Below are positions 8,423 through 56,469 of a DNA stretch of 64,000 bases, in pieces. Each line of letters starts with the position of its first letter. The first letter of the stretch is position 1. The DNA comes from Polytrichum commune (Eukaryota > Streptophyta > Polytrichopsida > Polytrichales > Polytrichaceae): the NCBI GenBank assembly GCA_950295325.1, contig OX485805.1:37871501-37935500 (forward strand). The letters are read 5' to 3'. The position numbers and the translations under genes were made by a program. The notes under the pieces are model-generated. The model made no database searches and was not told the DNA's origin. It worked only from the letters and a program-made list of their open reading frames with translations.

Positions 8423-8430
8423 CTCATACC

Positions 8431-22083: not shown

Positions 22084-23020
22084 TTTTTTATAATATTTTT
22101 ATAATATAATATATTTTTATTTGAAGTTATATTTATATTATGAGTAGAATAATGCCACCGGCCCACCTAAAAAAATTCAAGTATAACTTTTTAAATCTGT
22201 GCATGATAGACCAATACAAAGTTTGTCCACACATATAAAATTAAAAAATAAATGTTTACCCTAAACCCTTAAACGCCGCTTAGGGTTAGGTCAAGTTTTT
22301 TAGCCGCCGGTCTTTTCCAACGCCGCTCTTTTCCACCGCCGATCTACTTCGGCGCCTCTTACTCCTACAACTCTTACTCCAACACCTTCTTGTTTCTCTC
22401 CAATGGTACCTCTTCACTCCTTCTTCTAATTATTATTCCTCAAAAGTTCAGAAGTTGTTCTAGTACTACACTGGCTAACCTATTGCTGCAAATTTTGATC
22501 CTTCAGCTCTCTATCATCTTATTGCGTTCAATCCACTCTCCAATAATTCTAATGTCTTCATTTGCAGCTCAACTGATCTTTGACTCTATTTTCAACTTAT
22601 ATAGGCGCTTCAACACCAACTTTTATTCAATATTCAAATACCATCGTATTTTACGCTTATTTTCAACTTTATTCAGAATGTACTTCAATTCAACACTATA
22701 TTCATGTAATTGTTTAACTCTTCAATTTTTTGGGATTCAGATCTAAATCTGATTTCATTTTCCAAAACAACACAATTTATTAATTATTACAAAAGATTAC
22801 AGTATACTTAGTACATGTAGTTCATACTATGAGATTTTCGTAATAAATGCCTCATCCTCATTTTTCAAACTCTGGAATATATGATGTTTACCCTTACATA
22901 ACCCTTCAAAATCGGTATTACTCATCCGTATTACTGAATTTTGTTTTCTTCATTCTTGATTACAAAATATTGTATCACTTCTCTTCCTTTCAAGTTAAGG
23001 CAAATGTTTTGAATTTGTTT
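22084..23020. other. gene-free interval between minisatellites
   Basis: Contains short CGCCG-rich motifs around 22270-22350. The open frame at 22390-22746 is a low-complexity hydrophobic translation and does not look coding. Confidence 0.4.
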
Positions 23021-23024
23021 TTTG

Positions 23025-24320: not shown

Positions 24321-24481
24321 TGAGAAAATCGATTTTTGTTGTGATTGTTTAAAACGTTATGTGTTTAGAGGATATTTTTATATCTTTAGAATGGTTTATG
24401 TGTGCTTGAATGAAGTGAGGTTGGAGGTGATATCATGCGGGATAAAGGGGGTGGGCCTTTAAGGGCCCCCCAAATAAACAT

Positions 24482-29169: not shown

Positions 29170-29634
29170 ATCTCTTACACGTGCTTTCGGAGCTTTTTAA
29201 AGCCGAATACATATGTCTCACGTCCTGTTCCATACAATGTGGGATTACTTGCACGATTTAGAGGAGGGCCCTGTCACAACTCCAGCACGATGATCCGAGG
29301 CCAGGTTTGTTCTTGAATCTCAAAAGTTTGATCCAGACATCCTAATCTTTTGTCTTCATCTCCTGCATCAATATATCATTCTAGTCGATGGGTTTAAGAG
29401 AGTATTTTGGAGTCTGCTGCTGGAGTATTTTGGACGTGTCGGCGAAGACAGCAGCCTGTAACATGTTTGCTACCCGTTCTGTGATGCATCAGAAAGTGAA
29501 CCGAGCGGTTGTATCTACATAGCATAATCTGCGAGGAATGCCTATGTCAACCTCATAGTCTCAAATTTATTGCTTTGGTTTTGCAGGCAAGCAGGCACTC
29601 GCCCCTGAAATCAGACTCTGAGCCTCATGTTCAA
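29170..29634 (+). other. 5' leader region of LRR gene B
   Basis: Matches 1-41 joined to 1174-1611, without the foldback element. The TTTTGCAG acceptor before the coding start is conserved (29580-29587). Confidence 0.5.
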
Positions 29635-32600: not shown

Positions 32601-35192
32601 GCCTTGCATAGGCCAATCTAGGATTTAAGATAGTAAGTCCACCGAATCATCATGGGTTGCATTAAATTATTATGTATAAGATGATGTAATGCAATTCAAA
32701 TGGCCATAAATGGTTTTAGCCCTCAATGAGATGTGTGGTAGAGGCTATGGGTGAGAAGAAATAAACTTCTATGGGCAATGTTCCAAGTAACTATTTTATA
32801 ATCTTGTTTATTACGGTATGCCAATGTTTAAAAATGATCAAGTTATGAAACTTATATTTTATGCCAAGTAAGGAATTGGTTATTCTAATCGACTAATGTA
32901 TGGTGGGATGCAGGGGAAATACCTATGGAACTTGGCAAATTGAATCAACTGCAAGTCTTGCTACTCAAAAACAACAATCTCACTGGTTCAATTCCACCAT
33001 CACTTGGAAATTGTTCGTCTTTATATTTTTTATTATTGGGCTACAACAATATTAGTGGAAGCGTACTGATGGAATTTGGAAAGTTGACATTGTTGCAAGA
33101 AATTGGTCTTGAATACAATTGGGCGTTGGGTGGCCCCATTCCAAGATCCATATCAAATTGTTCTCAACTTCAAATTCTATTTGCGGGTGCTTGTAATTTT
33201 TCAAGCATACCAATTGAACTTTGGAGCATGCCAAATTTGCAACAAGTGGCCTTGTTCTCCAACAGTCTACGAGGTGAGCTTCCATTGGAAGTTGGCAATT
33301 GCACTTATCTATCTTGGTTGGACCTTGGATGGAATGGAAACGAGTTGAACGGATCCATTCCGAGGACTCTTGGGAACTTGAAGCAACTATCCACCTTGAG
33401 CTTGATTCAAAATAATTTCACTGGAGAGATTCCCAAAGAGCTTGGAAGTTTACCTCAATTGCAACTATTGTGGTTGGGGAGAAATTATGGATTGAATGGA
33501 TCTATTCCTCAAGAATTTGCTAATCTATCCAATATACAAGACTTAAGGTTGGGATACACCAACTTATCAGGTTCTATACCCAAATACTTGTTTAAAAATT
33601 GTACCAATCTAGTGACTCTCATCTTGTACGAGGCCCAACTTACGGGAATCCTACCGGATGGGATAGGTGGATTGCAACATCTTCAAAGCCTATATATCCA
33701 GGGCAATATGCTAACTGGCATCATTCCAAGTGATATTGGAGATTGTTCACAACTTACAACCTTTGCAATGTCTAGAAATCAATTCACTGGTAGTATACCA
33801 ACAAGCCTTGGCAAGTTGACTAATTTAGATGCGACATTGGATTTATCATACAACAATCTCAATGGGTCCATACCTTGGGAGTTGGGCAATTTGACAAAGT
33901 TACAAACATTGCAACTTTCTTCAAATTTGTTGTCAGGTGTTATTCCCGAGACTCTAGGTATGTGTACATCTTTGAACCTCCTAGACATATCATCAAATAG
34001 TATTTTTGGTGCAATTCCTACAACATTGGGGAATTTGAACAACTTGGTATCTTTGGACTTGTCAAAGAATAACCTCAATGGTAGTGTTTTGGCAGTGTCA
34101 AGTCTTGAAGGATGTCCAAAGTTGGAAACACTTAGGTTTGGAGACAACCAATTGGTTGGACAATTGGAACTAAACTTCACCAAATTACCATCCCTCAAAT
34201 ATTTTTCAGCCTATTCCAATAGCATTACCGGACCACACCCGACATCCTTTGCTACCACCAATTCTAGCCTTGTGCTTATTGACCTTAGTAGGAACAATAT
34301 AACTGGGGTCATACCTTCTCAATCCATATTAGGGAGTCATTTGCAAAGCTTGCGTGTTTTGGAATTGGCACACAACAATCTTCATGGTCCAATACCATCA
34401 TGGATTGGAGATTTGAAGTCGCTTCAAGTGTTGGACTTATCTTACAACAACTTGGAAGGCTTGATACTATCTCATGTTGATGGCTTGGACAGTTTCAAGG
34501 GGACAAATAATTCAGTTCAAAACACAGATGGGGCTTTCACATTAGACCAAACTGTAAATCTCACAAAGGGGCAAGGGATCTTATTGACATATACCTATAT
34601 CTTGAAAACCATGACCTACTTCGACTTATCCTACAATAACCTTGTGGGTGGTATCCCCGAAGCCCTTGCACAGCTAGTGGGATTGCAGTATTTGACCTTA
34701 TCCAACAATAAGTTGGAGGGTGAAATCCCATATGATTTGGGGAAAAATCTTCTAGGATTAGAGACTTTAGATTTATCCAACAATAATCTCAATGGGACAA
34801 TTCCATCTAGCTTGGCACATCTCCAATATTTATCTTCTTTTAATGTGTCATCCAACAACCTTCAAGGTGCAATTCCAACAGGCAACCAATTTGATACCTT
34901 CAACAACGCATCATACCTTCCAGGGAATCCAGGCCTTTGTGGGAGTGTTATAAATCGATCATGCAATAAAGGCACCCCTCCAAGTCAAGGTGAATGGAAT
35001 ATATCCACACAAGGAAAATTCTTTGAAGATGAAGTGTCAGTGACCGGGTTTGAAATTGGAGTTGCAATTGGGTTTTTCTCAATGGTATTTTTGATTGCGT
35101 CTTGGAGGCCCGCAAGGAGCTTGATATTGACATCACAATCAAAGAAAATAGTGGATTCTAGATATTATGGTGCATTTGAGGAAAGATCTTAA
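29635..35192 (+). CDS. LRR receptor-like protein B (no kinase), three exons
   Basis: Tandem sister of the gene at 1612-7160, also 1204 residues, with exons 29635-30898, 31392-31463 and 32914-35192 of exactly the same lengths, splice sites and phases. Signal segment, LRRNT_2 cap, LRR series, island, C-terminal cap, membrane helix and short tail are all intact. Amino-acid differences from copy A are few and scattered, including S/F, V/L and I/F changes on LRR faces and a segment near the C-terminal LRR (TGNQFDTFNNA against TAHFDTFDNT in A), which may affect recognition. It is a presumed plasma-membrane receptor-like protein needing a kinase partner (family knowledge). No damage seen, so both genes could be active. 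Confidence 0.9.
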
Positions 35193-36739
35193 AAACGACA
35201 TAGTAGCCAACAATTTTGTAGCTAGAATTTGTTGATGTATACTGAAATCATGTAATACTAAAGAGATGCATACATATATATATAGGTATCTTAGTTTAGT
35301 TTGTAAAAAATATAATGTACTATCATTTAACTACTAGTCTTTGATTAGTGTACAACATGAAACCACATTAAGATTTTGGTGTTGTAACACTTGAGATGTT
35401 ATGTATCCACTACAATTGTGTGCATAGTGAGAACATCACATGGATGTGTCTAAATGACTAATTGTCTAAACTTGAAATATGAGAATGTGGTGAGCATTTG
35501 TGTACCCAAGGTGGAAGCTATGAAGATGTGTAGCTTGCTACTCCCTTGCTACTCAAATTCAGCTCATTGCAAGTTGGTACAAGTGAAGGTGGATTGGAGT
35601 GCTTGAAGTTTTTTCCTCTTTTCGCTTCGCTTCAGTTCAACTCTTTTATGCCCAACCGTCATTGACAACCTAACCCTTACAAGGCCAAGAGGCTCAATGT
35701 GTGATTTACATACAAAACTAAAAATTTCTATGAACCCCACCAAGTCTTGAGCCACATTTAATATTTATTTAAAGGTTTGATATTTCATCTACTACAAAAT
35801 ATTATGTTAAGGAGGAAAAATTAACTATACTCATATGGAATATTGATGATCAAAAGACGAAGTGTGTATGAACATCCAAGGACACACATGCCCGTGTAAC
35901 TGAACCCAAATCTTCAAATCTCGCAATAAATGAAAATCCTATCACTGTGGGGACATGATCCTACCATTCACCATAATAGCGTTTATGATCAGTTTTGAAG
36001 TCAGAATAACTATATGGGCGATGGTTGTGTGGAAATGGAAATAAGGGTGTGACGAGCCTCTGTCAAATTGGACAGAATGGAGACGGGAAAAGTAAAAAAT
36101 TTCAAAAATTGGTCAATCAATAGGGTAAAGCGATCAATACCATTGGAGATGAGGAAACGGAGCAGCTTGATTGTTCATTCAATTGGCCTTTCTAATTTCT
36201 ATTGCCTCAGCCTGGGTTGACAGGTCCACACTGGGCTTAGTTAAGGGTTTGAAACTTGAGCATGGAAATCTGACATTGGGTTATTGTAATTGTGCAGTAC
36301 TGATCACAATAGCTCTGCAGGTTTTTATTTCGACTTGAATCCTTAACTCCTGCTCCGGAAGTATAGAATTAGGGTTTTGAAGATCACCTTCACGCAACAA
36401 TGAAAATGATATACTCACGCAAGGGAGTCCTCTTTTTGAAGCAACGATTTGAGCTCATACCTCTTTGAACTGGAGTGTGATATCACCAAAGATGCTGAGA
36501 CTCTGTTACTGTTGGGGTTTTAAGCTCGGTTTGATGAGTAATTCGCAAACATCTAGGAGTTGAGGTATAGGTCAGTGCTCCTTACGGTCAAAGAAGAGAC
36601 TAAGAATTGGTGGATGGCCTTCGTATGGGGATGAGGATGTTGGATTAGCAAGGAACACAAAGAGAAAGCCCAAAAATAATGTTTCTTTAATATGGATGAT
36701 TTCTAAGATCCTGATTTTGCCAACTATAATGTTGGACGT
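35193..36739. other. 3' flank of LRR gene B, part of duplicated unit
   Basis: Matches 7161-8430 and 9930-10225 with the hAT-like element missing. Provides the empty site for that insertion at about 36450-36465. No other gene. Confidence 0.6.
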
Positions 36740-38651: not shown

Positions 38652-39990
38652 GGAGGACGTTAAATACCCACCCACGAACTTTTCGGGAGGGGGGGGGGGG
38701 GGGGAATATTTTGTAAGGTGCAGCCCCCGACATTTTTTCTGCACCCGACCGAAAACTGTTGCCCGCCCGCCCGATTTCGAAAAAACTATTGTACTTGCAT
38801 TTTTGAAGGCTACTTGTCCACAAATCCCATATTGAGTGCACTTCATTTTCAAGGTCTCAAATCCAATATATATGTTCACTTCCATTGAGTAAATAAGCAA
38901 TTGACTAGATTTCATTTCCAAAGTGAAACCGCCAATAAAGCATGTAATTAACTTGGAAGTCAAAAATATTACAAAATCCTCATTACCATTGAGGTTGTAA
39001 TTTTTGTCACTTACAATTGAAAGGGACTTTGTCACTCTAAAATGAAACTAAAATGTATTTTTTAAATTATTTTTAAATAAAATATAATGTATTCTAATGT
39101 ATTATATATTTTAATATATAATCTAATATCTAATCTAATCTAATATCTAATATATATTTAATACCTTCTACTATCACAAAGTTTTCATACGCATTTAAAC
39201 TAGTTAAGAAAGATTGAATGCAACTAAGTCTAATAATTTCTGATTAATCCTAATTAATCCTATTCAAGCCCAATTAAATCAGAATATATACGTACCAAAT
39301 TAATTAAGCCTAATTAATTACAAAATGTACTTACTGGAATTAGTCATGATTTAAATGGAATTAACTCCAGTAAATATAATTTATTATTAATTAGGCTTAA
39401 TTAATTTGGTAAGCATATTTTTTGATTTAATTGGACTTATATTAGGATTAATCAAAATATATTAGACTTAGTTGCATTCAATCTTACTTAACTAGTTTAA
39501 ATGCATATGAAAACTCTGTGATAGTAGAAGGTATTAACTATATTATATATTATGTTATATTAAAGAATTAAAGAATTAAAATAAATAAATTATTAATTTT
39601 AGTTTCATTTTAGAATGACAAAGTCCCTTTCAATTGTAAGTGACAAAAATTATAACCTCAATGGTAATGAGGATTTTGTAATATTTTTGACTTCCAAATT
39701 AATTACATGCTTTATTGGCAGTTTCACTTTGAAAGTGAAATCTAGTCAATTGCTTATTTACTCAATGGAAGAGAACATATATATTGGATTTGAGACCTTG
39801 AAAATGAAGTGCAATCAATATGGGATTTGTGGACAAGTAGCCTTCAAAAATGCAAGTACAATAGTTTTTTTGAAATTGGGCGGGCGGGCAGCAAATTTCG
39901 GTCGGGTGCAGAAAAAATGTCGGGGGCTGCCCCTGACAAAATATTCCCCCCCCCCCCCCAAAATTCGTGGGGGGGTATTTAACATCCTCC
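38652..39990. mobile_element. Mutator-type foldback element (MULE-MITE 2)
   Basis: Ends GGAGGACGTTAAATACCC and the complement GGAGGATGTTAAATACCC, with arms of about 500 bp or more. A 9-bp direct duplication flanks it: ATGACCTAC (38643-38651) and ATGACCCAC (39991-39999), with single-copy empty sites at about 10105 and 36613. Nine bp is the Mutator rule. The long frames at 38553-39035 (minus) and 39615-40025 (plus) are the same translation read from each arm, so I treat them as artefacts. G- and C-runs lie symmetrically near each end. Same family as 42-1173. Confidence 0.9.
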
Positions 39991-40334: not shown

Positions 40335-40503
40335 TTTAGATTTTTGGATACGATAAAACCTAGGGGAATACGCAAGGAAGACCTAAAAGGTGATATTTTG
40401 AGTCTAGATCTCTCATATAAGCTTTATGAGGACAATTTTAGGTTCATTTCAAGTTATTTAGGATTTTTAATGGACAATTCATACTTCAAGTATGTAGGTT
40501 TAG
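40335..40503 (+). pseudogene. ORF fragment interrupted by the giant element
   Basis: A protein-like frame (DLSYKLYEDNFRFISSYLGF, then MDNSYFKYVGL) runs straight into the target duplication and, after removing the 16-kb element, continues in frame on the other side from 56460 for 14 codons to a TAG at 56511. The giant element thus probably landed in an open frame. Family not recognised; a TAG lies just upstream, so the fragment was already incomplete or spliced. Confidence 0.35.
40494..40503. repeat. target-site duplication, left
   Basis: GTAGGTTTAG, repeated exactly at 56460-56469. Confidence 0.88.
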
Positions 40504-40563
40504 CAGGAATGCTATCTTGTGAGCGGTGAGCGATGAGCAGTGAGCCGTGAGCAGAAAATTTGA
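40504..40563. repeat. left terminal inverted repeat with heptamer array
   Basis: CAGGAATGCTATCTTGTGAG, then a run of heptamers (GTGAGCG, ATGAGCA, GTGAGCC, GTGAGCA) and AGAAAATTTGAA. The inverse is at 56400-56459, where more of the heptamers read GCGAGCG. Such subterminal arrays are typical transposase-binding sites (family knowledge). Confidence 0.85.
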
Positions 40564-41234
40564 ATTTTTATTCTTCAAATTTTTCAATGAAATGTATGAT
40601 ATAGACCCTATGACCGTGGAGAATTTATGGTTTCATTCTATAAAATCTGCATATTATTTAACAAAAATTAATCAAGGTCCTATTCCCGCGGAGGGATTTT
40701 TGCAGTTCACACAAATGATTTTTTTTGGAAAGGCCTTGTAAACAAAAAAAACACCTTTGGTACATTAGAATCTCCCAACATGCATATCAACATGGTTGAA
40801 TTTTTTTCAAATGGCCCAATTTAAATAGTCATCATCTAGACATTAAAGTGGTTAATAAAGTACGCATCCATTTAAGTACGCATCATGGTTAAGTGCGCAA
40901 TTTTTTTTAACAAAAATCAAGGTTTGTATTTTATTGTTTGAATATGTCATGCAGAGTTGTTTGTCGTGAATGCATGAGTTTTTTTATGCTTGACATTAAA
41001 TGTCAGTTTGTTGACGTTTTGCTAAAACGTCTCAAACGATCATCACAATTCATCATACATATGTCTAGCTTCCGTTTGAACATCGGAGCAAAGCAATTGG
41101 TCGTCGATGTCGAGGACAATGCTATGTAGAGCTTCAAAGCCTTTAAAGTTCTTAAAATCCAAGGTTCATAAAAATAAAAATAAATCATATATTAGAAGGA
41201 AATACACGTATTTTTATGTGAAGTGCTTCAATGA
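40564..41234. other. left noncoding part of giant element
   Basis: AT-rich sequence between the left terminal repeat and the end of the leftward gene; its 3' UTR should lie here. The plus frame at 40547-40741 begins in the terminal repeat and is not supported further. Confidence 0.4.
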
Positions 41235-44200
41235 TCACGAAGACAATTCAACATCATTAGAAGCCTTAATCCATCCTTCCTCGCTATCACTGTCACTAGA
41301 TGATCCATCAACTTCTGTAGAAATATGGAAATATTTTTCTACGGGACGGCAACTACTATGTTTTTCTGGAGAAGGGTCTGGTGATGAAGTAGCTGCATAC
41401 GCTTCTGCAACAATCTCAGCATGAAAAGGAAGCTGAAGAGGTCTAATAGGGCTTCTAATCTTACTGATATAGTGTGAGAGAATGCTTCCATCATACTTCA
41501 TCATAGAGGACTTCAACGCTTCCTTGCGCCATCTATAAACAAGTAAAAATCAACCATTTAAAAATGTTGGTAAGAAAAATTGAGGAAATGTTTAAAAATT
41601 TGAAGATAGATAGTGTAGACTTAATTACTTACAAGCTCGCTTGGCAACAGTCTTCTTCTCTGGCTCATCTGCATTCTCCAAAGGGCGTTTCTTCTTTGGA
41701 GAAGACCTTGTAATTTTGACTGACTGAATTTCTTCAGCTTGGGGAAGAAGAGAAACCAATACCTCTTTGTATAAGATACTGTCATATTCAAATGCAATAA
41801 TATGACGATGAAGACTCTTTGATGCCCGAACAGAAGCACTTGAAATAAACAATACCATTTAGTACTTGGTATAAATTAATAACCAAACATATCAAAAAAA
41901 AGTATAGGGGGAAAATAATACCTGTGGAGGCTGTGAGGTCCATGACAATGTCATCTTCAACCGTGCAGAGATCAATAAGAGCCATGAGTAATTAGAAAAC
42001 TTCTCCCGTGCACCTCTAAATGGCATTCTATTCTCCGACTGAACAGTTAGAGAATCAACATCAATGAGGTTTGTGAGATGTCCATCTGATGACAACTTGA
42101 TGCCATGTGCAAGAAGTTCAGGACGGTCACAAAACACAAAATTGGACATTGGAACCTCTTCATCCGGATTTTCCTTTCTAACAAAGCATTTCACCATGAA
42201 ACACTTATGCGTACGGGATGGATGATCCGGGACAGTCAAAGGAAGACCGTTAATTGCAAACCACTTGGATTCCTCCTAAAAATTTGCCCAATCCGCCCAA
42301 GATAAAAATTCATTGGATATAAACTTTGAATTAGGATAAAATACAATGAGGGCACCATCATCTTGAAGAAACTGCATGGCAAACTCAAAATGCCTCTTGA
42401 TCCATATGGATTCCACTTTTCCATCTATATCATCTGGTTTAGTCTTTGGATGACGGTTCCAAGGTGGAATTTCACCAGCAATACCAAGTCCAGGAACAGG
42501 TAAATCCTCCGGAACATCAGGGATAACAAGATCAACTACATTGTCAGCTTCACAACCCGCATAGCTTCGAATTTTTTTACCTTGATGATCTTTAATCCAT
42601 GCTTTCATACGCCTCCAAATCTTTGGCTCATCACTCTCAGTAACATCATCAAACAAGTCAAAAATATCTGAAGGACTATTATTGATGATCTCTATCCCAC
42701 TCTCTACATCATCCAACTTCGAGCATGGGATAGTATACACCGTTTGTGACGGAAAATGGGCAACGGAAAGAGGCACCTGAGAAACCAAAGGAGTAATAGT
42801 AGCGGGCATGCTACTGCCTGAAGGAGAAATACCCACATAAGAAAGAAGTTTTTCTGGCCCTTCCTTTAACACAAGCTTCGCCAACTCTTTGTTCCGTGCC
42901 GCAACCTCCTTCTTCAACTTTATTTCTTCCTCCTTGCCTTTCTTCTTTTTTTCTTTCTCCTTCAAACGAGTTTCAACCTTTGCTTTCTTGTCAGCCAATT
43001 TCTTCCTTTGTTTGTCAGATATAGAGTTGTCATCACCCACCTCCGATGCATCTTCTTCAATATGCACCAAATTCTCAGCCTCTAATTGTTGCATCATATT
43101 GTCACAACTAGCCTTCAAGGCTCTCTCCTCTCCAGGACATCTTTCATTTTCCTTTAACTCAAGATACCAAGGACATTGAAGAAGATGAGGTCTTTCAAAA
43201 TATTTTTTCTGATAGTTTGAAAAAATACATTCACTACTAGAAACATCCACCCACTTGTTAAAACGTTGAGGAATGTTCTTCCTATCAATGGCCCCCTTAA
43301 TCACCAACTCCCTCCAGAAATATCTCAAGATAGCTCTCTTCATAGCATTCTCAGTACCAGCTTGGACAAGAAATAACTCCTTCGTATAAGTGCCATCATT
43401 TGAAAAAAATTCTTTGAAAGCCTTCTTCCACAAAGTAATAGAATGGGACTCAATCCAAGTTCCAATATCGTCCACTGGGTTGGGCAAGTCCTCGGTCTTC
43501 AATATGATAGCATCTTCCTCCATAATTTCTCAAATCGATTTACTGCCTCTTCCTCTAACTGCAACAATGTACAATTATTCAGCAAAACAAATTCAATTCA
43601 ATCCATCAAATTCTCAAATTTTAGATATAACTCAAACTTCATAAAAAATATAAATATACGGTTCAAAATAACATACCCCAGTCCAGAAGGCAGCTTTATC
43701 TATCCAAATCCGAAGAACTGAATCAGAAGCGGGTGAGGGAGGAAAATTGTATTCTTTACGACTCTCCTTACTCATATTCCACCACCTTAACCATCTCTCT
43801 TTGTGCTTCGAAGAAACCTTTGTTGTTGCAATAAGTTGTAGTTTTTCTGAAGTCATCTCAGGCTTCACTTGAAAGATATCAAAGTGACAAATAATCTACT
43901 TTCAAAAGTACAATTAGATTAGTAAAAATTTGCACTACAAAAAAAGACATAATATAGAAAATATTTAATGACATATATGCAAAATTTACGACATTAATTG
44001 TTTAGGTTTAACCCTCTCAAACCCATAATCAAGCCAACCACACAAAATAACATCACAAAAACCAGTGAAGGCCTCCTAATTTAACTAATCACTTACCTCA
44101 GCCACATAGAACTTCTTCTTAAACAAAGCACACAATAACCATGTAAAGGGCAGTAAGAGGATTATTATTTCATAAATATTTATTATAAACGTCCCATCTA

Positions 44201-45534
44201 ACTTCTCTCGGATCCGAGACCATGCAAACCAAGTTGAATAAAATTACAAAAAACAAAAAAATCTATGATAGATGGTGGAGCACATACCTCTCGTATGAAA
44301 CCCTCTCCATTTGCTGGATTGGCAATTGCGAGGTACCGAGATAGGTCTGTAGAGAGGAAGGCCTTCTTTGCCTCAACAGCCTTAGTTGCGGCGGCCTGTA
44401 GTTCAAACGGACTTCCAATTCTATCTTCGCCTGTACCGGTGACAAGACTGTCTTTGTACAACCTGATTGCCTCTTCTTGTGCTGCGGAGATTTCTTGCTA
44501 CAAACAAAGATAACAAATTCAGACAAGTTCTCATTTAAACTTGTAGGTGACAAATTGAAAGTAGACAAGTAATTTACCTCGTATAAACAATTGATGAATG
44601 CATCGTGAGTAAGATGATACCACTTCCGTCTCTTCCCACCGTGACGATTCCACTCAAGAATACTAGCTTGAAGGTCTTCATCACTGACAAGTCCTTTAAG
44701 TTGATCAAAGTCTAGCAATCCCAATTGCTGGACACACTTGACATTGTGCGTGAAGTGTTGGGCGACGTGATCAACCTGGTTTTTCATGGATTGCATACAC
44801 CTCAACTAAGAATACAAATGATACACGATGCATTTACTAACATGAGTGTTTAAATAATAAATAACAAGAAATTCGAAATTCAAATAACATATTTTGAAGA
44901 ACTTACTTGTTCCAATCTGTCATCACATGCAATAGCATGTTACAATTTTCTGAAGATACGTTGATCAAAACAGAACGTACGGGAACATGAAAAAATGCAT
45001 CATTTTTATGGAGGGCACTAATGACATCCATCCATGCAATATGACGGTGATTTCCGTCCCATACGTAGAAAAACTGATTAGAATACTTTCCTAATGCTGG
45101 ATTTTTTGCCAATCGAGCTTCAAACTCCAAATCCTCCTTGCGCCACAAATCCGACCATGAAGCCCAATGAGTCTCCGTGACGGTTGCTTCTTCCATTCTA
45201 AAACTCCTTAAGGATAGATAGAAGCAGGCTGATGCCCGCCTATACCCACGAGAGAACTTTGCCTTCAACTTCTGAATGTCAGTCTTCAAGGGCTCTCTAA
45301 CATTCTTCATAGGAATCATCCTGCACAAGGGCACGTCAAGTTCACAGTTTGGAGATTCAAGTGCACTTTGAATTGCATCATGTGAATTGCCTCTCACGGC
45401 TCTCCATAATTTCTCCTCAATCTCTGCTAAACCACCATCTTCAACCTCCATGTTGACCTTTGGGCTCTCGCTTTCACCCTCTGCAAATTTGTGAGTCATC
45501 TGCGCATATGGATAAGAGAATTGAGAAATAAGAG

Positions 45535-46250
45535 CATTTTCAAAAAAATAAAATAAAATAATACATGTCCACCTTTGTTTCGGATCCGAGACAACAAATT
45601 TAACGCATAAAATTGGAGTGAATCCCTTAACGAATTGAGAAATAAAGCATTTTCGAAAGAAAAAAAACTACAACCAAGCAATGAGTGCAAGAGCATTTTC
45701 AAAAAAAATAAAATGAAATAGTAGCCGTCCACCCTTGTCTTAGATCCGAGACAACCCATTTAATGCACAATCCTAGAGGAAAACTGACGGGTTTCTCTGA
45801 TGTACATGAAGCCATGCCCGCTTAGAACCCAAGGCTATGAGAACAAGCGCATTTTCAAAATAAACAAAACAAATAGTACCCGTCCACCCTTGTTTCGGAT
45901 CCGAGACAACAAATTTAACGCAGAAAATTGGATTGAGTCCCTTAACGAATTGAGAAATAAAGCATTTTCAAAAACAAAACTACAACCAAGCAATGAGGAC
46001 AAGAGCATTTTCAAAAAAAATAAAATGATATAGTACCCGTCCACCCTTGTTTCGGATCCGAGACAACAAATTTAACGCACAAAATTGGAGTGAGTCCCTT
46101 AACGAATTGAGAAATAAAGCATTTTCGAAAAAAAAAACTACAACCAAGCAATGAGGACAAGAGCATTTTCAAAAAACAAAAAAATGAAAAAGTACCCGTC
46201 CACCCTTGTCTCGGATCCGAGACAACCCATTTAATGCACAATCCTAGAGG
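45535..46250. repeat. tandem array, five ~157-bp units with palindrome
   Basis: Each unit contains GAGCATTTTCAAAA, CCGTCCACCCTTGT, one palindrome, and (in most) TTAACGAATTGAGAAATAAAG and ACTACAACCAAGCAATGAG. Palindrome spacing is 160, 155, 157 and 159 bp. A CCTAGAGGAAAACTGA..GGGTTTCTCTGATG segment ends the second and fifth units. It lies in an intron of the leftward gene just upstream of the ParB exon. Confidence 0.9.
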
Positions 46251-47421
46251 AAAACTGATGGGTTTCTCTGATGTACATGAAACTCTGCTACTTGACAATT
46301 ATCTTTCAACACTCTGGTATCATTTTCTGCTGAAGCTGGAGAGCGATCTTTGACATGTCAAATGACCTAAGCCAAAAGAATCAACTCTTCAGGAAATGAT
46401 TTTTCATAATATGATTTAGAATTGACCTATATCTGATTTAGAATAACCTCATTTTTTGCTTGATTTGGTACCTTGAATGTTTGGGGGTAAAACATTTACC
46501 AGAATCTAATCTCAAGCAAGCCATGCGTTTAAGCACCAGGATGACAATTATATCTCTCTCTAAGGTTGAGATTAATCTCCAACAATTTCATTTGACCACC
46601 AAACTTCATTTTAATGGTGAATTTAAGAAACTAATTCAAGGCATTTGAGTTGAGCATACAAGTGGAGAAGAAGACAATACCCCGACAATGCAGTGAACTT
46701 ATCAACAACTTGTGCACGCTAATTGCAAGTTTTCACAAAACATGCAATGTTTTTTTCCAATTCAAAACACAATGTGAAGTTGCAATTTGACCCCACATAG
46801 AGACACCAAACCCTAAGCTCCATCCCCTTCAACTCATACGGCCTGCCATGTGGAAACTATCTGTAGCACATTTCAAATGCATAAGCACTCTTTCTGGAGC
46901 TGCCACTCAGGCTTTCATAATGATTATTAGCATTTTTGAGACTGCAGTAAGCTCTAAGAACTCGCATAAATTTCGTTAGTGTCACCAATGGCAATGGCGC
47001 AATCTCCGCCTTCAAGTTTTGCAGTGGCTAGACTAGAGGAATTTCCTGCGGTTTCAAGATTCACATAGTTTGGAGTGACACATTAAGTTCTTTTTGACCG
47101 CATGTACTTAATCCATATACAACTAAATTCCTCTCTTGAAAGATTGCCAGGGAATTGATTCACATAAATAGAAATGGACATTACAAGTAAATTATGAGAC
47201 TCTGGAGATGTTCTTGTACTTGGATGAGGCAGCTTGTCACTACACTGAGCTATAACTATTTAAAGTTGTATATATCAAAGAGCTAACCGTGAAGCTCAGA
47301 ACAGATTGAAGAAAATTTCGGTATTTTATCCGATTCTAACCTATACGAGTTCATCAAGGCAATAGATATTGAAGTTACCACCAAAATTCAAGGCAACTGG
47401 TACACCTTCAAAAACACAGTA
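46251..47421. other. intronic/noncoding part of giant element
   Basis: Within the intron between the 47989 and 45480 exons of the leftward gene. No ORF, RNA or repeat recognised. Confidence 0.45.
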
Positions 47422-47662
47422 CACTATTCATGGTTTTTAGTGTCACTTACTATTTAGAGTTACACAGTGCTGTAAAAAAATTACTGTTAGCGTAAGTTTT
47501 TACCAAGTTAAAAATGTTTTTTGAAATTTTAAAAAAAACCATTTTCTTAAATGTCCAACCAACCAATTCGACCTTTGTCAGTGAAAGAATGAAGATGTGA
47601 AAGAATATTTGTAGCCTTGCGTAACTCCAAATAGTAACTGATAGCAAATACCACAAATGGTG
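47422..47662. mobile_element. CACTA-ended MITE nested in giant element
   Basis: CACTATTCATGGTTTTTAGTG at left and AAATACCACAAATGGTG at right, inverted; same subfamily as 15310-15528 (shared TTTTTACCAAGTTAA and CAACCAATTCGAC-type blocks). Left flank TA, right flank CA. It lies in an intron and post-dates the element's assembly. Confidence 0.7.
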
Positions 47663-47989
47663 CAGCTGGGTAACATCTATTCCAACGAGCACAGGGAACT
47701 TCTGGAAATTTATCGCCACATGTAGAAACATGTCGTAATAAATTGCCAAAGCTTCAGCACAATGACGGAGGGATTCTAAACATATAAGTAGTGAACTAAG
47801 AATTTAGCTCTGTGATAGTTGGAACATTAAATTGTCGATCAGCGGAGTACTGCTCAGTGCAATAGAATTTCAAGATGCAATTTCCTCTTACCTGGATAAT
47901 TAAGAGCTGTCAATGCCTCATGACACTCAGCTTCACCCTCAGCATCTAATACATCCTCAGCCTCTTCTTCACCGGAACAATGAGAATAC

Positions 47990-49440
47990 CTGTTGGGACC
48001 CGAAAGCCTTGTCTCGGATCCGAGACAAGGCTTCACTGAGGCGCAAGGAACCTGACAGGTGGGATCCCCCGGTAACAAAGGGGAGCACCATTGACCGACC
48101 CTGATCTTCTGTGAAAGGTTTGAGTGTGAGCATACCTCTCTTAACCCGGCCGAAAGCCTTGTCTACCTCCCCCTCGAAATAAAGGCAAGCAACAACACAA
48201 GTGCACTGAGATTAAACGGCGATTCAGAATACAACAGGAGCACACAATCCATTGATTCGATTGCAGTGAACAAGCAAGTGAGCGCTGAGTGCCAGCGAAG
48301 CTCTTTGGAAACTATCAAACTACAATCTCTCACTTAGGAAACTATCCCTCGAAACTCTTTGGAAAGTATCAAACTACACCCGGCATTTACAACAAGTCGC
48401 CCGCTCGCACTGGACATTCAGATTAGCGTCGTTCTAGGAGAAAATAGAACCCGCTTTGCACATACACAATCCTCCAAACCTTGCTCGTGAAGACTGACTA
48501 ACTCTCGAGAAGGTGAAAAATTTATCAAATAACTAAAGGTACTAACGATGCCTTCAAGTCCCAGTAGCATGACTAGGGTGATTTCGTGATAGACAGCCTG
48601 ACTTCGAAAGACTGCAACGAACACATACAATCATGACGGCGAGCAAGAACCTACCTTCGAAATTCAGAGGAGCAATAACACATACCCTGAGATTAAAAGG
48701 CGATTCAGAATGCGACAGGAGCACACAATCACTTGATTCAATTGCAGTAGACTAGCAAGCTGTAAGAGCTGAGTGCCGGTGAAGCTCTTTAAAAACTATC
48801 AAACGAACTCAGCATTTACAATTAGTCGCCCGGTCGCACGAGACATTTAGGGGAGCAGGCTTCCGACGAAAATACAATCCACTTTGCACCCACGACAAAG
48901 CCCCAAACCTCGATCACGAAGACTGCCCGATTCTCGGGAAGATGAAATAAAATGGCAACTTGGGATGAAATATGGCCATGGATGATTGAAATTTAGTTGT
49001 CTCGGATCCGAGACAACTAAGCCGTGAGACTGAGCCGTGAAAATCGACGATCAGACCTCAGATCAGGAAAGACTACCCGCTGAGTTTAAGCATATCACTA
49101 AGCGGAGGAGAAGAAACTAACCTGGATTTACCGCGTATTGTCCAGGTGCCAGCCCTTGATCATCCTCGCTCAAATTCACGGTGGCTGAAATCGACCGACC
49201 CTGATCTTCTGTGAAAGGTTTGAGTGTGAGCATACCTGTTGGGACCCGAAAGCCTTGTCTCGGATCCGAGACAAGGCTTCATTGAGGCGCAAGGAACCTG
49301 ACAGGTGGGATCCCCCGGTAACAAAGGGGAGCACCATCGACCGACCCTGATCTTCTGTGAAAGGTTTGAGTGTGAGCATACCTCTCTTAACCCAAAAGCC
49401 TTGTCTACCTCCCCCTCGAAATAAAGCCTTGTCTACCCGC
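47990..49440 (+). rRNA. 25S rRNA fragments interleaved with palindromes
   Basis: Short 25S pieces appear in shuffled order: TGTTGGGACCCGAAAG (47991, 49239), GACCGACCCTGATCTTCTGTG to GTGAGCATACC (about 48092-48138, 49194-49236, 49338-49382), and the 25S 5' end ACTACCCGCTGAGTTTAAGC (49070). A ~150-bp module with palindrome plus 25S piece is present twice (47990-48140 and 49238-49388). Another repeat pair, CGGCGATTCAGAATACAACAGG-like, is at about 48215 and 48700. These are relics, not functional rRNA genes. Confidence 0.8.
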
Positions 49441-50270
49441 TGAGTTTAAGCATATCACTAAGCGGAGGAGAAGAAACTAACCTGGATTTCCCTAGTAACG
49501 GCGAGCGAACCGGAAAGTGCCCAGCTTGAAAATCGAAGTTCAGACCTCAGATCAGGAAAGACTACCCGCTGAGTTTAAGCATATCACTAAGCGGAGGAGA
49601 AGAAACTAACCTGGATTTCCCTAGTAACGGCGAGCGAACCGGAAAGTGCCCAGCTTGAAAATCGAGGGGCTTCGCCCCTCAAATTGTAGTCTGGAGAAGC
49701 GTCCTCTGCAACGGACGTTCCCTGGAACGGGACGTCGGAGAGGGTGAGAACCCCGTCGAGTTCGGACCCTGTTGCTCCACGAGGCGCTGTCTGCGAGTCG
49801 GGCTGTTTGGGAATGCAGCCCTAAGTGGGAGGTAAATTCCTTCCAAGGCTAAATACAGGCAAGAGACCGATAGCGAACAAGTACCGCGATGGAAAGGAGG
49901 GCGCGGGGGTCGTGGAGCAGCTTTGGGCGTGAGCCCAAGTGAAACGGCCTCCGGTGCAGATCTTGGTGGTAGTAGCAAATTTTCAAATGAGAACTTTGAA
50001 GACTGAAGTGGAGAAATTAAAGGTTCCATGTGAACAGCAATTGGACATGGGTTAGTCGATCCTAAGAGATGGGGCAATCATGTGTCAATGGCGCAATGCG
50101 CCCCGTGTATCGAAAGGGGATCGGGTCAATATTCCCGAACCGGGCCTCGGCAGCGGACGGCGACGTGGCCGAATCCAGAGACGCCGGCGAGGGCCCCGGG
50201 AAGAGTTCTCTTTTCTTTTTAACAGCCCGCCCACCCTAGAATCGGATCACCCGGAGATAGACACAGATCG
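49436..50270 (+). rRNA. 25S rRNA 5' region, truncated and rearranged
   Basis: The 25S start is present twice more (49433-49530 and 49560-49660: CCGCTGAGTTTAAGCATATC, GTAACGGCGAGCGAACCGG). From 49560 the match continues through GGAGAAGCG and AGACCGATAGCGAACAAGTA to about 49888, then jumps to a later 25S region (GGTGCAGATCTTGGTGGTAG at 49954, CATGGGTTAGTCGATCCTAA at 50046, AGAGTTCTCTTTTCTTTTTAACAGCC near 50200). It lies in the large intron between exons 50946 and 47989 of the leftward gene. Numerous substitutions show a non-functional copy. Confidence 0.88.
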
Positions 50271-50945
50271 TGTTACAGGAATGGGCAGAGCAGCTGGCTA
50301 ATGAGGGAAAGGCCAAAGCATATGCCAATTCAATGGCGGAGAAGCAAACTCCCTCTCCGGACACGGGAAGGAGAAGAGACGAGGGTGGGGGGGGGGGGTA
50401 AAAGGTTTCTGGATGGATGGATGGATGACCGGGACCAGGTGGGGGAGAGGCTAAAACTCACCACACTGGTCTCACTCACACAACCTCGAAATCGACACTC
50501 TCCCCCTCAACTCACCACACATTTCCCACAAATGACGCAGTTTAGGGTTTCGGGTGAAGAAGCAGACTTGTGATTTGTGAGCAAGTATGCAATGGAATGA
50601 GTCTACAAAAAAAATAATGAACAATCCGTGTAATGTAATTGTGAAGATGCTTCTCTATAGCAGTCGAGATTGTGAAGATGCTTCTCTAGGATCCCACCCG
50701 ACCTCGAAGCTGCACACTGAAACTCTCGCCAGGTTGGATGGTTCAATATCAGATTCCTCGCCTGAGATTTTCAAAAGAATCAGGAAAAAATTGCCCTTTC
50801 ACCCTTGTCTCGGATCCGAGACAAGGCTTCATGTAGGTTGTTCTAGAGCCGGACCGCACACTATGAGGGATGTGTAAACCCGGCGAAGCCTCCTCTCCTC
50901 CAGAAATAATTACATAAGGCATTCAAAACTAATTACTAAACCTAC
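50271..50945. other. noncoding intron segment
   Basis: GC-rich to AT-rich transition with a G-run (about 50389-50398), ATGG repeats (50412-50427) and one perfect palindrome at 50807. Directly followed by the 50946-51032 exon of the leftward gene. Confidence 0.45.
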
Positions 50946-51441
50946 CTCTTTGGCAAGGGGAGATTGAGCCTCAATCGTTGGCTGATCTCCGGGGCATGCG
51001 TCCCCTAGGTCGCCAACTTCACAAGCAATACCCTGCGAATCATTCAACGAATGCTCAAAACCCTAATGATAAAAACCCTAGTGATCACTGTCAGAGTCAC
51101 AAAAATGCAGGTTATGCAAAAAGCTCCGAGTTTTCTCAGCCATAGTTTAAGTCTATGAATACACAGCTTGGTCAATACGCGAACCCTCAACAGACTACCC
51201 ATAAACCATTGAGAATATTTACCTTGCAAATATCCCCTAATTCCTTAAAGTTCAAATGGTTTGTATCATTTGAGCTGCTATCAACCTCAACAATTTGATT
51301 AAGAGCCATTTTTTCCCGTCGTCTCCGTTGAGCCTTCAGTTGCTTTGGCAGTGTAAAATGGCTACTTCGTCTTCTTCCTCTACCTCTACATGATCTAAGA
51401 GCTCTTGGAACTACTGCGCTTGGGACCTCGCCCTCCTTCAT

Positions 51442-52210
51442 GTGTCTGATTCACAATCACACCACAACTAGTCACTACTAGAAACGAAATAGAAGCGAAG
51501 GATAATGTACATTGTCATTTCAATAGAATGACTCATTATTCTCTTCAAATTGCTTTAGGGTCTTCCCATCAGATACTTCACTAATGGTTAATGATTAATA
51601 TTTTCAGATCATGGCTCATGATTATATTTAGATAAACATTCTCATTGTTATTATTAGAGTACTTCTACACGATGTTCTCAATACAGGTCTTCCAAAACAA
51701 ACAAGTATAGCAATGGATAATTATAAAGCATCTAATTAGCTCATAGGACAAAGTACGATCGTCACGCAATTTTAAGTATCTAGGATCTAACAGATTTAAG
51801 TGACTATGAATAGTGGTCTTAGCTTGCATGCCTTAGAATAGAGTCATGAACTCCATTTCAGTGCTATTAAAGGACATCTATAATTTTGGCATAAATACGG
51901 CTGGATGTTATTATTGTATCACCTAACACCTTTATGCTTGGTGGTCTCAGCCGTCAATGGAATTCTTAATTTCAATGCTTTATAAAATATGCTTTGCCTC
52001 TTTCAACACCTACTTTACAGATCATTGTCATATACAACAAATATTCTATTGAGCTTCCACCCACTACCTATAGTGTGACCACAAGGTCTACAATCCCATC
52101 CTCGGTGAGATATATAATGAGCATATCAATTGAAACCTTACATCTTCTTCTAAGCATTTTCTTATTCAAAGCATGATTGTACGTCTTCCATCTTCTATAG
52201 CACACTTAGA
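51442..52210. promoter_or_regulatory. divergent promoter region of giant element
   Basis: The 769 bp separating the ATG of the leftward gene (51441) from that of the rightward transposase (52211). AT-rich, no ORF of note, no palindrome copy. Its role is inferred from gene arrangement; I cannot define a TATA box. Confidence 0.5.
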
Positions 52211-55200
52211 ATGGCTTCTCTTAGATCCCACGCTGGAGGTGTTCCATTTGTGATGTCTTTGGGCCCAGACGACAAGGTAGTTGTCCATGAACAACTTCTT
52301 AGTCTTAGGTTTGGTTTCAGATCTGGTACAATTTATGTGGAAGAGGAAGTGTTTGATGCTAATGGAGAGTTATGTGAGTCTATATTTCAGGTCAAGGATA
52401 GTACTGATGAGGGCTATGTCTGGAATTTAACAAGTGGTACTTACAAAGTGTACGGTTTATCAGATGTTCAAATGTCCGGGTCTACTATAATCATGACACC
52501 TCCTACTTCCACATCAACCGTTCATGTACCTGGTCTAGCTACTGTCAAAGTCGAACCGACTGAATCAAATGTACAGATATTGAGTGATTCAGACGATGAC
52601 AATGTTAATGAGATCAAGCTAAGTGACATTTCAAGTAATCCATTTCAGTCACGTGGCTTGCTTGGATCCGCACGTCCATTTCAGCACCATAGTCGCTCAA
52701 GTGTGTCACCGTCACTCTCTTCAAGACATCCACCTATTCATCCTAATTGTAGGAAGAGTCGTAGTATCTTATTTGCTATTAGAAAGACTGCCTCTAGAAA
52801 GGGTTCTCGTTCAGAGCTTTCACGAATAGATTTTGACAGTATTGATCACGAACAAGTCAAGTATTTACCTCCAACTTATGATGGAGAGAAGATATTTGAG
52901 TTGCCTCCTCTTCCTGAAGGAATTCCAACTCAATTTGGAGGTAGTATGGATGGAATGAGCAAACAATACGATGGCCATACATGGTGCAAAACCATCACAA
53001 CTAATATCAAGAATGAATTTGGCCTTACCTATCGTAGGTCCTCTTGTACTGGACACCTTGAGTGCCCAAACCAGAGTTGTAATTACATCTGCAGGAACAA
53101 TGGCAAGGTAAACTGCACAGAGTGGTCTGGAGTGGCTTTGATACCATTTTCAATTGGAGGGGGTCCAAGTGAGAAATCCACATTAGCGTGTAAGGTTTGT
53201 CAAACACCTCCCATTTGCTTAGCATTATGTGATGCTAGAATCTACCATGTGTCGTCCAATGACAATGATGTCACTCGTGCTGCAATCCACTTAGGATGTC
53301 ACAATCATCCAGTATCTCAAGGAACATGTCAAGATTCTATGGACATTATGTATGATTGTATTGCCAAGGAAGTCCAGAAGACTCCTAATGCAAAGAACTC
53401 TGCTATCATCATGGCGGCAAGTAAGAACTATCTTGCGGATGCCTTGATTCGTCCAACTCCAGGCGGAAGCAACCTTCAAGGAGCATCTATGGATGTTGTT
53501 ATGGACCAGTTTGAGACGCTTACTTCACCAAACTTACGCAACTTCGTATCTGGAACAAAGAGATTCTTCCGTCAGGGGAGAGGAGTTACGGATAGCATTC
53601 TCGAACTCAAAGACTACTCCAACTTTGTTTTCATCCACCAAAATCAATTTCCAGGTCAAAACAAGGGAAAGGTATTTGTTTTCAAGATGTCCGTGGACCG
53701 TCCAGGGAGTGGTGTGGACTTGGTGAAGCGCATGCAACCCGGCGGTGACCTTCAAGATTGTTGGGTCATGTTCGACCATGTGAAGCATGTTTCTAGTTGG
53801 ACTACTATGGCATGCCATGTCTACGACAGCAAGTACTGTAAGGTAATGACCATTGCCCTTTGTGATATGCAATCTGAGGATGCAGAAGCCCAAGAGTTGT
53901 TTTGGCTTCATCTGAACGAAGTTATGCGGAAGAATGGATTAGAAACTACAAACTTCAAGGGCTTCATGGCTGATAGTGCTGGAGCCAATTGGCACGCCGT
54001 TCGCAAAGTATATGGCAACGGAGATCCCAACAAATGCATGGAGAACCGGGAGCGGACATGTTTGTTTCACTGGACAAAGTGCCTTCAAAGAGCCACCTCT
54101 AAAAACATTCTACCGGGTTTTCAAGACCAGCACATCGCTATGTGCAAAGTCTGGAAGGATGCTAAGTCTCAAGAAGAAGCACAAGCGCAGTATAACGTCA
54201 TTCGGGGTTGGTGGCTTTCATCTGGTGCTACAACAGAGGATGGAAGGCGTTCTCTAAATGACTAGATAGCATTCTGGCACTTTCGCTACAGACAGTGGGG
54301 CGGCTCTATGCAACTTGTAAGTTTGTGCATCACTTCACATGTTTTAATACACTAAACCTTCACTGTAATTCATATCGTTAGGCCATTACTCATCTTTGCA
54401 TGTGGTTTCTCCAGGACCTCACTCTTGACGAGAGGGCGGACATGCCTTCTTGCAATCTAGCGGAAACTGTCCACAACAGATGGCTGCAACAGTCCGGAAA
54501 CACAATGACATGTTTGTACGAGGCTACGGTGGACGATCTCTTTCGTGCTTTCATGCAGATTACAAGCTACCGATTTTGGTTGAAAGGGGGGAAGGGAGGA
54601 AAGGGACCAGACAAATCTGAACTTCGTCTACGCCATGCACAACGCTTTGGAGACCCTAAGCTAATAGCTGAGGCAGTTAACTCTTACCCTGGGGCTGCAG
54701 ATCTATTGACCAAGAAAGGAGGCCTTGAGGGCGCAGAGATTTTTGGGTCCACAAAACGAAAGTTAGATTTGCCACCAGGATCAAGTCATGATTCGCATCG
54801 GTCGGATACAGTGAATTACTCTATTCCACGTGATGGTACCAGGTTCACTAAAGCACGCATTGAGGAGGCTCTATCTAAACCTGACTCGGGCGTCCAACAC
54901 ACTACCTCCGTTTTGGAAACCAACTGCGATCCTTCAAAGTGGCATATTGCCCGTCTTTCAAGCAAATCCACACGGAAATGCCAGGCCATGTGTGCTCATA
55001 CTAATGAGAAATGTGATACCAGAGTAGGACGAGGTCCACATGGCACCCCTGCCCCTACGTATGTTGGCGATAAGAAGGGGTACAAAACTCATCGAACTAT
55101 TTCTACAAAATTTTGGTTTTGTGCAGATGACATTAATCGATGTGTGAAGGGGACCAAGAAATCCTTTGTGGTAGGTTGGCCATCTGTTCCTATGACCTGG

Positions 55201-55797
55201 CCTGTGAAGAAGGGTACAAACTTAACTATGAAGAAAATCTTGGCTCTAGAAGAGGCAGGTTTCCAACTCCAACAACATGGTGCCTTCTCTCCGCGCCGTC
55301 AATTCCAGAATGCAGCAGACATGCCACTTCCAAGATCACATTTCCCAACTCCTGTGAATCCAGACTCACATCCTACAACTCGAGACGGTTTTGCCATCAG
55401 AAGAAGCTCAGATGCACCCACTCCTGAGCATCGCAATAAGTGGAGCAGTGCAGGACTTATGAACAATTGTCATGTGACAAGCGTTACGTCCATACCATAC
55501 CCTGCATATGGGTGTGTTATATCCATGGATAGTGGTAATGGAAAGGTGTATTGTATTACCATCACCGATTTACCGGGATGTACCTGCCCCGATTTCATGA
55601 AGATGACATCAGAGACCTTAGGAAAGAAGGGTCAATGGAGGTATTGCAAGCATGTGTACTACATCTTTCGCTATTTCTGCAAGATGGATTACAAAGTGGA
55701 CACTTTCATGCACGCACCCAGCTTTAGCTACAATGAGGTTATGCATATTTTAGAACTTGCTAAAGTTGTTGAACCACTTATGTACGTAGTTCCTTGA
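52211..55797 (+). CDS. MULE-like transposase, two exons, one in-frame stop
   Basis: Exons 52211-54316 and 54382-55797, phase 0, GTAAGT donor and GTTAG acceptor; 1173 codons. The N-terminal 200 residues are acidic and serine-rich. A zinc-binding region (about 270-366) has spaced cysteines and ends CHNHP, like WRKY/GCM1/FAR1 fingers. The RNase-H-like core has MFDHVKH (D about 522) and MADSAGANWH (D about 588) followed by CLFHWTKCLQ, a Mutator-type C..H pattern. A SWIM finger CTCPDF...WRYCKH lies near 1101-1125. A TAG at 54263, 17 codons before the intron (LND*IAFWHF), would truncate it; TGG or CAG to TAG explains this. Role: excision and insertion of the element. Whether this copy works depends on read-through or an alternative donor. 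Confidence 0.82.
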
Positions 55798-56399
55798 CTT
55801 CCTTCATGCTTCAAGGTGCTTGGTAGTGAACTTTTTAGTTCGTGAATCCCATCTTCAATAGCGGAATTGATTTGAATTGCCTTTGATTTGTATTTGAATC
55901 TGCACATTATTAAAAGATCATATTTATGAAACCATGAATTTTCCAATCTTGGATACAAAAGGATTGCCATGAAAATGACTATTTTTCTCTATTTTTTATT
56001 CTCAATTGTGACTATAGAATATTCTTGTCTCGGATCCGAAAGGACATGGACAAAAAAAATTCATTTATTTTATTATCTGTTTTCTTTTTTTTGAGTTTTC
56101 GTGGATAATACTTAAAATTTTAATTTACATTCTTATTCCCTTATTTTATGTTCCCTATTATTTTGAAAGTTTTTTTTCTAATTTTTTTTTTCGTTTTCTT
56201 CCGTTTCTTTTTATGGATGGTTTTTTCAAAAGTTTATAATTTCTTCCACTCCACGGTTATAGGCACCATCCACAGTTAAACGTACCATCTACTTTTAGTC
56301 ATATTTGTAAAGAAACTATACGAAGAGTCCTACTTGGTGTAAGAATTAAGTCAAATATTCTAATTTTTTTTTTTAAATCAAAATTTTTTTTCAAAAATT
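55798..56399. other. right noncoding part of giant element
   Basis: Transposase 3' UTR region, with a half-damaged palindrome at 56027 and T-rich tracts leading into the right terminal repeat. Confidence 0.5.
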
Positions 56400-56459
56400 T
56401 CAAATTTTCTGCTCGCCGCTCGCCGCTCACTGCTCACCGCTCACAAGATAGCGTCGCTG
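56400..56459. repeat. right terminal inverted repeat
   Basis: Reverse complement reads CAGCGACGCTATCTTGTGAG followed by heptamers GCGGTGA/GCAGTGA/GCGGCGA and AGAAAATTTGAA, matching the left end. Confidence 0.85.
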
Positions 56460-56469
56460 GTAGGTTTAG
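56460..56469. repeat. target-site duplication, right
   Basis: GTAGGTTTAG, identical to 40494-40503. Confidence 0.88.

Follow-up and report, generated by a model that had tools for sequence, protein, structure and literature searches.

Mutator-like elements (MULEs), among them MuDR, Jittery and VANDAL, and the VANC proteins of Arabidopsis VANDAL elements are among the closest described systems to the element reported here. For MULEs, the sections of PMC6446971 drawn on here give target site duplications (TSDs) of 8 to 11 bp, a SWIM finger and the length of the terminal inverted repeats (TIRs) as features, and the part of its table of extra domains that was covered names PMD, FAR1, SET, ovarian tumour and MutB, with no DNA methylase among them; a count of the words moss and Physcomitrella in that text gave 0 for each. 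According to the portion of PMC5735166 used here, the short motif to which Arabidopsis VANC21 binds shows enrichment in the protein's own elements, where it is located in introns and in the region upstream of VANA21; it builds up via tandem repeats and varies from family to family. Here we describe a 15,956-bp element of the moss Polytrichum commune, located at positions 40504 to 56459 of the window, by which we mean the whole stretch of 64,000 nucleotides that was analysed (contig OX485805.1, positions 37,871,501 to 37,935,500 of the forward strand). This 16-kb element is a genuine DNA transposon that was mobile until recently, and it carries a transposase gene and a methylase-like second gene. 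Among the papers listed by searches of the open-licence PMC literature, none describes a Mutator element with a DNA methylase gene in its title or the start of its abstract.

A preliminary description of this stretch had proposed matching inverted ends of about 60 bp, an exact 10-bp direct duplication and a transposase gene with a second large gene in divergent orientation. All of these were recovered, as follows:

40494–40503, no strand: left TSD GTAGGTTTAG, an exact copy of the right one
40504–40564, plus strand: left TIR, holding tandem 7-bp GTGAGCR units (by eye)
41633–45499, minus strand: gene 2 (methylase-like), exons predicted from reading frames and from GT-AG splice sites; the window copy is broken
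52211–55797, plus strand: transposase gene, inferred exons 52211–54316 and 54382–55797 with a 65-bp intron, stop at 54263–54265 in the window copy
56399–56459, minus strand: right TIR, pairing with the left end
56460–56469, no strand: right TSD GTAGGTTTAG, an exact copy of the left one

Counted by eye, the 61-bp inverted ends are identical at 52 of 61 positions, and tandem GTGAGCR units can be seen in both; a repeat search reported the inverted ends as 69 nt at 84%. The element was also said to have inserted into an open frame that reads on across the duplication. Such a frame does exist in the joined flanks, running about 70 codons from stop to stop; it has no support as a gene and was rejected as a host gene.

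A search of the host assembly (407.8 Mb in 64 contigs, nearly all of it in seven large contigs of 42 to 78 Mb) for the ends and the transposase, as had been suggested, found other loci that carry these ends together with these genes, an outcome in favour of the preliminary description. With the 97-bp left end as query, at least 40 genomic matches at 97 to 100% identity were obtained, the window's own included (best 40 of 337 candidates), of which 37 span all 97 bases and 3 span 95 or 96. Because the left end is repeated across the host genome, a chance origin of the ends is excluded. Eight left-end loci were inspected: one is the window (L001), two (L004 and L007) continue into longer copies, and five (L002, L003, L005, L006 and L008) are short copies of 502 to 591 bp made of both ends alone. 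TSDs of 9, 9, 10 and 10 bp flank four of these five short copies and none flanks the fifth; the inverted ends are common to long and short copies. With the second transposase exon as query, the best 90 of 3030 candidates comprised 14 own-family loci at 92 to 100% identity (five partial) together with 76 places at 58 to 60%, which constitute a sister group.

Ten long copies were examined, namely the window and 9 of the 13 other own-family loci, leaving those at C4:30.09, C3:46.29, C3:10.26 and C6:24.33 Mb outside the sample. The right-hand side with the transposase is kept, in whole or in part, by all nine further copies, and both genes, some of them truncated, occur in the same divergent order in 9 of the 10 long copies (the window and 8 of the 9 others); in the exception (L015/L016), the 20 kb examined showed no more of gene 2 than its 5′ end. 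Both ends are present in 7 of the 10, with sizes of 11,065 to 15,956 bp, and exact 10-bp TSDs flank five of these seven (the window and four others) and neither of the other two. The size and the gene pair had been called unusual in the preliminary description. Size is not notable by itself (11.1 to 16.0 kb in the seven copies, about 9 kb in a sister element) and was rejected as the main novelty, since length varies over this range and part of it is owed to a variable middle, in which pieces of the 28S rRNA gene and tandem repeats are found.

In the window copy both genes are broken, the transposase by an in-frame stop and gene 2 by several lesions, and none of the copies examined was seen with both genes intact. 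The transposase stop is absent from 7 of the 8 other copies that cover its site. One copy (L015/L016) has an unbroken 1169-aa transposase frame once the 65-bp intron is removed, but its splice acceptor is altered; another (L013/L014) has a start codon, an exon 1 without stop, both splice sites and a single exon 2 stop at the frame end, and its transposase looks intact from its sequence. The transposase has 55 database relatives at 44 to 97% identity, mostly open reading frames (ORFs) of 650 to 860 aa spanning about half of the query region; MFDH and GFMADS are conserved positions, and CLFHW is found in most relatives. A DDE catalytic layout with CxxH between the second D and the E is the Mutator-type layout. 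Read by eye, the transposase has this D-D-(CxxH)-E layout together with a C-terminal SWIM-like CxC...CxH, and its second exon contains LAETVHN and the SWIM-like CTCP...CKH.

Two features go beyond the preliminary description, namely the methylase-like nature of the second gene and a family-specific palindrome carried by the element. The parts of gene 2 are listed here:

45499–44907, 44800–44578, 44497–44288, 44117–44097, 43862–43677, 43558–41922 and 41838–41633, minus strand: seven inferred exons of gene 2
44907–45499, minus strand: exon 1, an N-terminal conserved domain with WDGNHRHIAW, 14 homologues
41633–42570, minus strand, approximate bounds: methylase-like core, with DVPE read as motif IV and DDIVMDLTASTGAS as motif I

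By sequence homology, gene 2 encodes a bacterial-type N6/N4 DNA-methylase-like protein, and a protein of this type carried by a plant DNA transposon is of interest in itself. In copy c3_29.7 (L021/L022), the product of exons 5-6, with X at stops, matched Pfam N6_N4_Mtase at E 8.8e-6 and 26.3 bits, compared with a cut-off of 26.7. Four database relatives of the core, at 44 to 96% identity, keep long invariant blocks, and two of the four showed a weak N6_N4_Mtase match of their own (best E 0.01). When five gene 2 sequences were aligned by hhalign with YhdJ and four phage methylases, the score was 93.5% with an E of 2.4e-7, whereas one reversed and three shuffled controls all remained at or below 0.4%. 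Searches of PDB sequences and NCBIfam gave nothing useful. Likeness to the beta-class N6/N4 DNA methylases (YhdJ and phage enzymes, PF01555) lies in the motif order as read by eye, in the S-adenosylmethionine (SAM) motif I, which appears as DIVMDLTASTGAS or ILDLFVGTGAS, and in the profile similarity. The usual beta-class catalytic motif is (D/N/S)PP(Y/F/W). Unlike these enzymes, the gene 2 protein, by our by-eye placement of motif IV, reads DVPE in each of the four database relatives and, in a sister ORF, DIPD; it also has a domain with a ParB-like motif ahead of the core, and is carried by a plant transposon. The predicted product is therefore likely to bind SAM, and ordinary amino-methylation is doubtful because the catalytic motif reads DVPE or DIPD. 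A protease reading of gene 2, the kind of second gene sometimes found in plant MULEs according to the preliminary description, was rejected, as Pfam points to a methylase and its protease matches carry no weight; one relative of exon 1 matched Peptidase_S76 at E 0.006.

Exon 1 has 14 database relatives, one of them from the moss Ceratodon purpureus. By its WDGNHRHIAW motif it is a candidate ParB/sulfiredoxin-like domain. A ParB assignment by profile was rejected in the absence of a significant match; compared with YbdM alone, hhalign returned a nonsignificant E of 0.13 and aligned the two on the DG-x-HRH motif alone.

The two-gene arrangement is found again in sister elements, where the transposase is about 59% identical to that of the subfamily described here and gene 2 occupies the same place. 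One sister copy, at C6:17.28 Mb, is about 9 kb long and has related ends, a transposase and a gene 2 without the methylase core; the ends showed no obvious duplication. Another, at C1:9.65 Mb (L056/L057), has a related left end, an exon-1-like domain, a methylase ORF and a transposase, in the same order and orientation as in the own subfamily; its right end was not found within the stretch examined. The 577-aa ORF of a sister element (L055) matches Pfam N6_N4_Mtase at 35.3 bits, above the cut-off of 26.7, over profile positions 163-216, and alone it gave 84.9% and an E of 6.5e-6 against the methylases in hhalign. Own and sister methylase parts share 22.7% identity over 587 positions (E 1.3e-21). 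A genome scan with PF01555 returned 118 places, including a 30.6-bit match at C1:9.66 Mb over profile positions 1-216. From these, the 11 best on large contigs were used (E 2.4e-5 to 0.015), and 107 were left out, namely three strong ones on the small contigs C10 and C12 and 104 that are weaker. For six of the 11, a listed sister transposase is no more than 15 kb away, in every case on the divergent strand; the remaining five are not counter-evidence, as the transposase list holds the best 90 of 3030 candidates.

Two further observations came from the same scan. Contigs C10 and C12 (L052-L054) carry strong bacterial-type DNA methylase ORFs and possibly represent bacterial contamination of the assembly. 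The 104 weaker PF01555 places are short, cover profile positions of about 163-196, often fall in 119-aa open frames and are spread across large contigs, and may belong to a further, shorter element family.

The second feature, a repeated palindrome, is distributed within the element as follows:

44203–56044, no strand: palindrome TTGTCTCGGATCCGAGACAA, 20 bp, 11 sites with up to 4 mismatches, starting at 44203, 45575, 45735, 45890, 46047, 46206, 48009, 48997, 49255, 50805 and 56025
45530–46241, no strand: tandem array with a period of 157 bp and 4.5 copies, containing five palindrome sites (repeat search)

Nine of the 11 sites lie between the two genes, one is in a gene 2 intron (44203) and one is 3′ of the transposase (56025); by eye, at least four different contexts of the element are represented. 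Each of the 10 long copies contains 7 to 11 sites. Genome-wide, TTGTCTCGGATCCGAGACAA with at most one mismatch occurs at 132 sites, compared with 0 for a reversed control, and the 50 listed among these 132 are all at own-family loci: 41 have an own-family transposase no more than 15 kb away, in space that makes up 0.10% of the genome, four lie 6 to 8.5 kb from a left end at C2:63.02 Mb, and five lie at C3:14.62 Mb in a stretch that is 89 to 98% identical to the element in long matches. None of the 50 is near a listed sister transposase, and TTGTCTCGGATCCGAGACAA is absent from both sister elements read. One of these has another palindrome, TGTGCGCTAGCGCACA, found via a repeated-word search, which occurs at 75 genomic sites compared with 0 for a control. 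Among the 50 TGTGCGCTAGCGCACA sites listed, 9 of the 10 exact and 26 of the 40 one-mismatch sites have a listed sister match, transposase or methylase, no more than 15 kb away, in space that amounts to 0.64% of the genome. As a separate observation, one-mismatch copies of TGTGCGCTAGCGCACA stand 197 bp apart at C4:21181096-21181505, with no listed transposase or methylase nearby.

In layout, the element is the same in kind as VANDAL21/Hiun with VANC, in that an element-specific repeated motif accompanies a second gene; the two are likened by layout, not by protein sequence, and they differ in that the motif here is a 20-bp palindrome and gene 2 is methylase-like. Taking the explanation as a whole, we consider it probable that this is a Mutator-like cut-and-paste transposon, a member of a young subfamily that has at least 14 long copies and belongs to a larger two-gene lineage; the element would be moved by its transposase, and its gene 2 product may read the element's own palindromes. 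The transposase would bind the tandem GTGAGCR units in the ends and would move the element and its short derivatives, leaving duplications of 9 to 10 bp. With less certainty, the gene 2 product may recognize the palindromes in the non-coding DNA of the element and, through a SAM-binding and probably altered methylase fold, may alter or protect the chromatin or transcription of its own family. The result would be a self-recognition system working like VANC and its motif in Arabidopsis VANDAL, built from a different protein. The wider proposal is that moss Mutator-like elements evolved VANC-type self-recognition independently, with a bacterial-type methylase-like protein (its N-terminal domain may be ParB-like) that reads palindromes confined to its own subfamily and counters or redirects silencing by the host, palindrome and protein diverging together from one subfamily to another; we regard this as possible, at somewhat less than an even chance. 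How an element escapes silencing without waking everything else has been worked out for the Arabidopsis VANC proteins, and if the proposal is true, moss would offer another system of a different make, and its defined protein and subfamily-specific palindromes would make that question testable.

Several results weigh against this explanation and lend substance to its rivals. The placement among MULEs stands on the ends, the duplication length and the motif layout read by eye, and the element is Mutator-like in these respects; membership in the superfamily is unproven by sequence. Like MULEs in the part of PMC6446971 that describes them, it has duplications of 9 to 10 bp, inverted ends, short non-autonomous derivatives, captured host DNA and a second gene. 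Unlike them, its transposase finds no counterpart in Pfam MULE (PF10551), which was unmatched by all 23 relatives scanned and, by eye, absent from the 14 own-family loci among the 142 places listed in a genome scan. When 11 canonical MULE frames from this genome were compared with it by hhalign, the result was likewise not significant: the best E was 0.33, three subsets gave 0.37 to 0.71, and a reversed control gave 0.88. These negatives would fit a separate superfamily of DDE transposons outside Mutator that shares 9- to 10-bp duplications by chance. That reading is unlikely in our judgment, given that hhalign's best segment aligns the second D and the CxxH in register, that one of the 23 relatives matched Transposase_mut at E 0.18, and that the hhalign test is itself weak, its 11 frames having been picked at the locus centre with 8 of the 11 having the open-frame length of the genome scan; TSD length, the SWIM-like finger read by eye and TIR length also agree with the MULE values in the sections of PMC6446971 used here. 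This transposase lineage, missed by current Pfam models, is likely to be unannotated in moss genomes.

The role of gene 2 meets objections of its own. At least one stop or frame break occurs in gene 2 in each of the six other copies translated, so that with the window it is broken in 7 of 7 own-subfamily copies. The stretches aligned in the Pfam matches of copy c3_29.7 and of the 577-aa ORF, and in the five-sequence hhalign comparison, start after the putative motif IV, which makes DVPE/DIPD a placement by eye; a ParB-like reading of exon 1 found no useful Pfam or PDB-sequence match; and the structure predicted by AlphaFold for the methylase part (4 sequences) had a mean pLDDT of 40.5 and was unusable. 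An ordinary large MULE in which gene 2 is a captured gene fragment without a role, as in Pack-MULEs, would account for the broken copies, and it draws on the capture of host DNA by MULEs in general and of 28S rRNA gene pieces by this element, as well as on the abundance of the sister group and its copy at C6:17.28 Mb that lacks the methylase core. Against a passenger stand the long invariant blocks kept among database proteins at 44 to 96% identity, the same place and orientation in two subfamilies with transposases about 59% identical, an open 577-aa methylase frame in a sister element, and divergent pairing with a listed transposase at 6 of 11 sister methylase matches, and we judge this alternative distinctly improbable. 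The link between gene 2 and the palindromes is the more tentative part of the preferred explanation, and we hold it to be well short of an even chance: 14 of the 40 one-mismatch and 1 of the 10 exact TGTGCGCTAGCGCACA sites listed are away from any listed sister match, and within the 157-bp array the palindrome is no better conserved than its flanks, with a mismatch rate of 0.064 inside and 0.012 outside (25 units). Of the 32 inside mismatches, 22 fall at one C/T position; conservation in the array failed as evidence for palindrome function. Instead, tandem duplication may have spread palindromes that are ordinary sites for a promoter or a host factor, with no reader encoded by the element, as their position mostly between divergent genes and partly in tandem arrays would suggest. 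Set against this are their occurrence in several contexts, among them an intron of gene 2 and a place 3′ of the transposase, the confinement of all 50 listed sites to own-family loci, and the absence of TTGTCTCGGATCCGAGACAA from the sister elements read, at least one of which has a different repeated palindrome between its genes; we consider host sites a real possibility, though a less than even one.

The variable middle of the element also contains captured host sequence:

49073–50362, plus strand: captured 28S rRNA gene pieces, matching Rfam LSU_rRNA_eukarya at 49565–49891 and 50022–50362, with a repeated 5′ piece from 49073

These pieces are rearranged and partly repeated. Of the 10 long copies, 6 contain a 37-nt probe taken where the captured piece starts, and because this 5′ piece is shared, the capture spread with the element. 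Amplification of captured host sequence along with the element is as in Pack-MULEs; unlike in Pack-MULEs, the capture lies inside a two-gene element, and the family may be autonomous.

Elsewhere in the window, an imperfect inverted repeat (a 1.3-kb palindrome, 84%) lies just left of the element at 38652–39990. A 7.3-kb block is duplicated at 1174–8430 and 29202–36461 with 96.8% identity and contains, by eye, a leucine-rich-repeat receptor-like frame. A local tandem array at 23004–24350 has a period of roughly 120 bp, its shifted copies being 82 to 85% similar.

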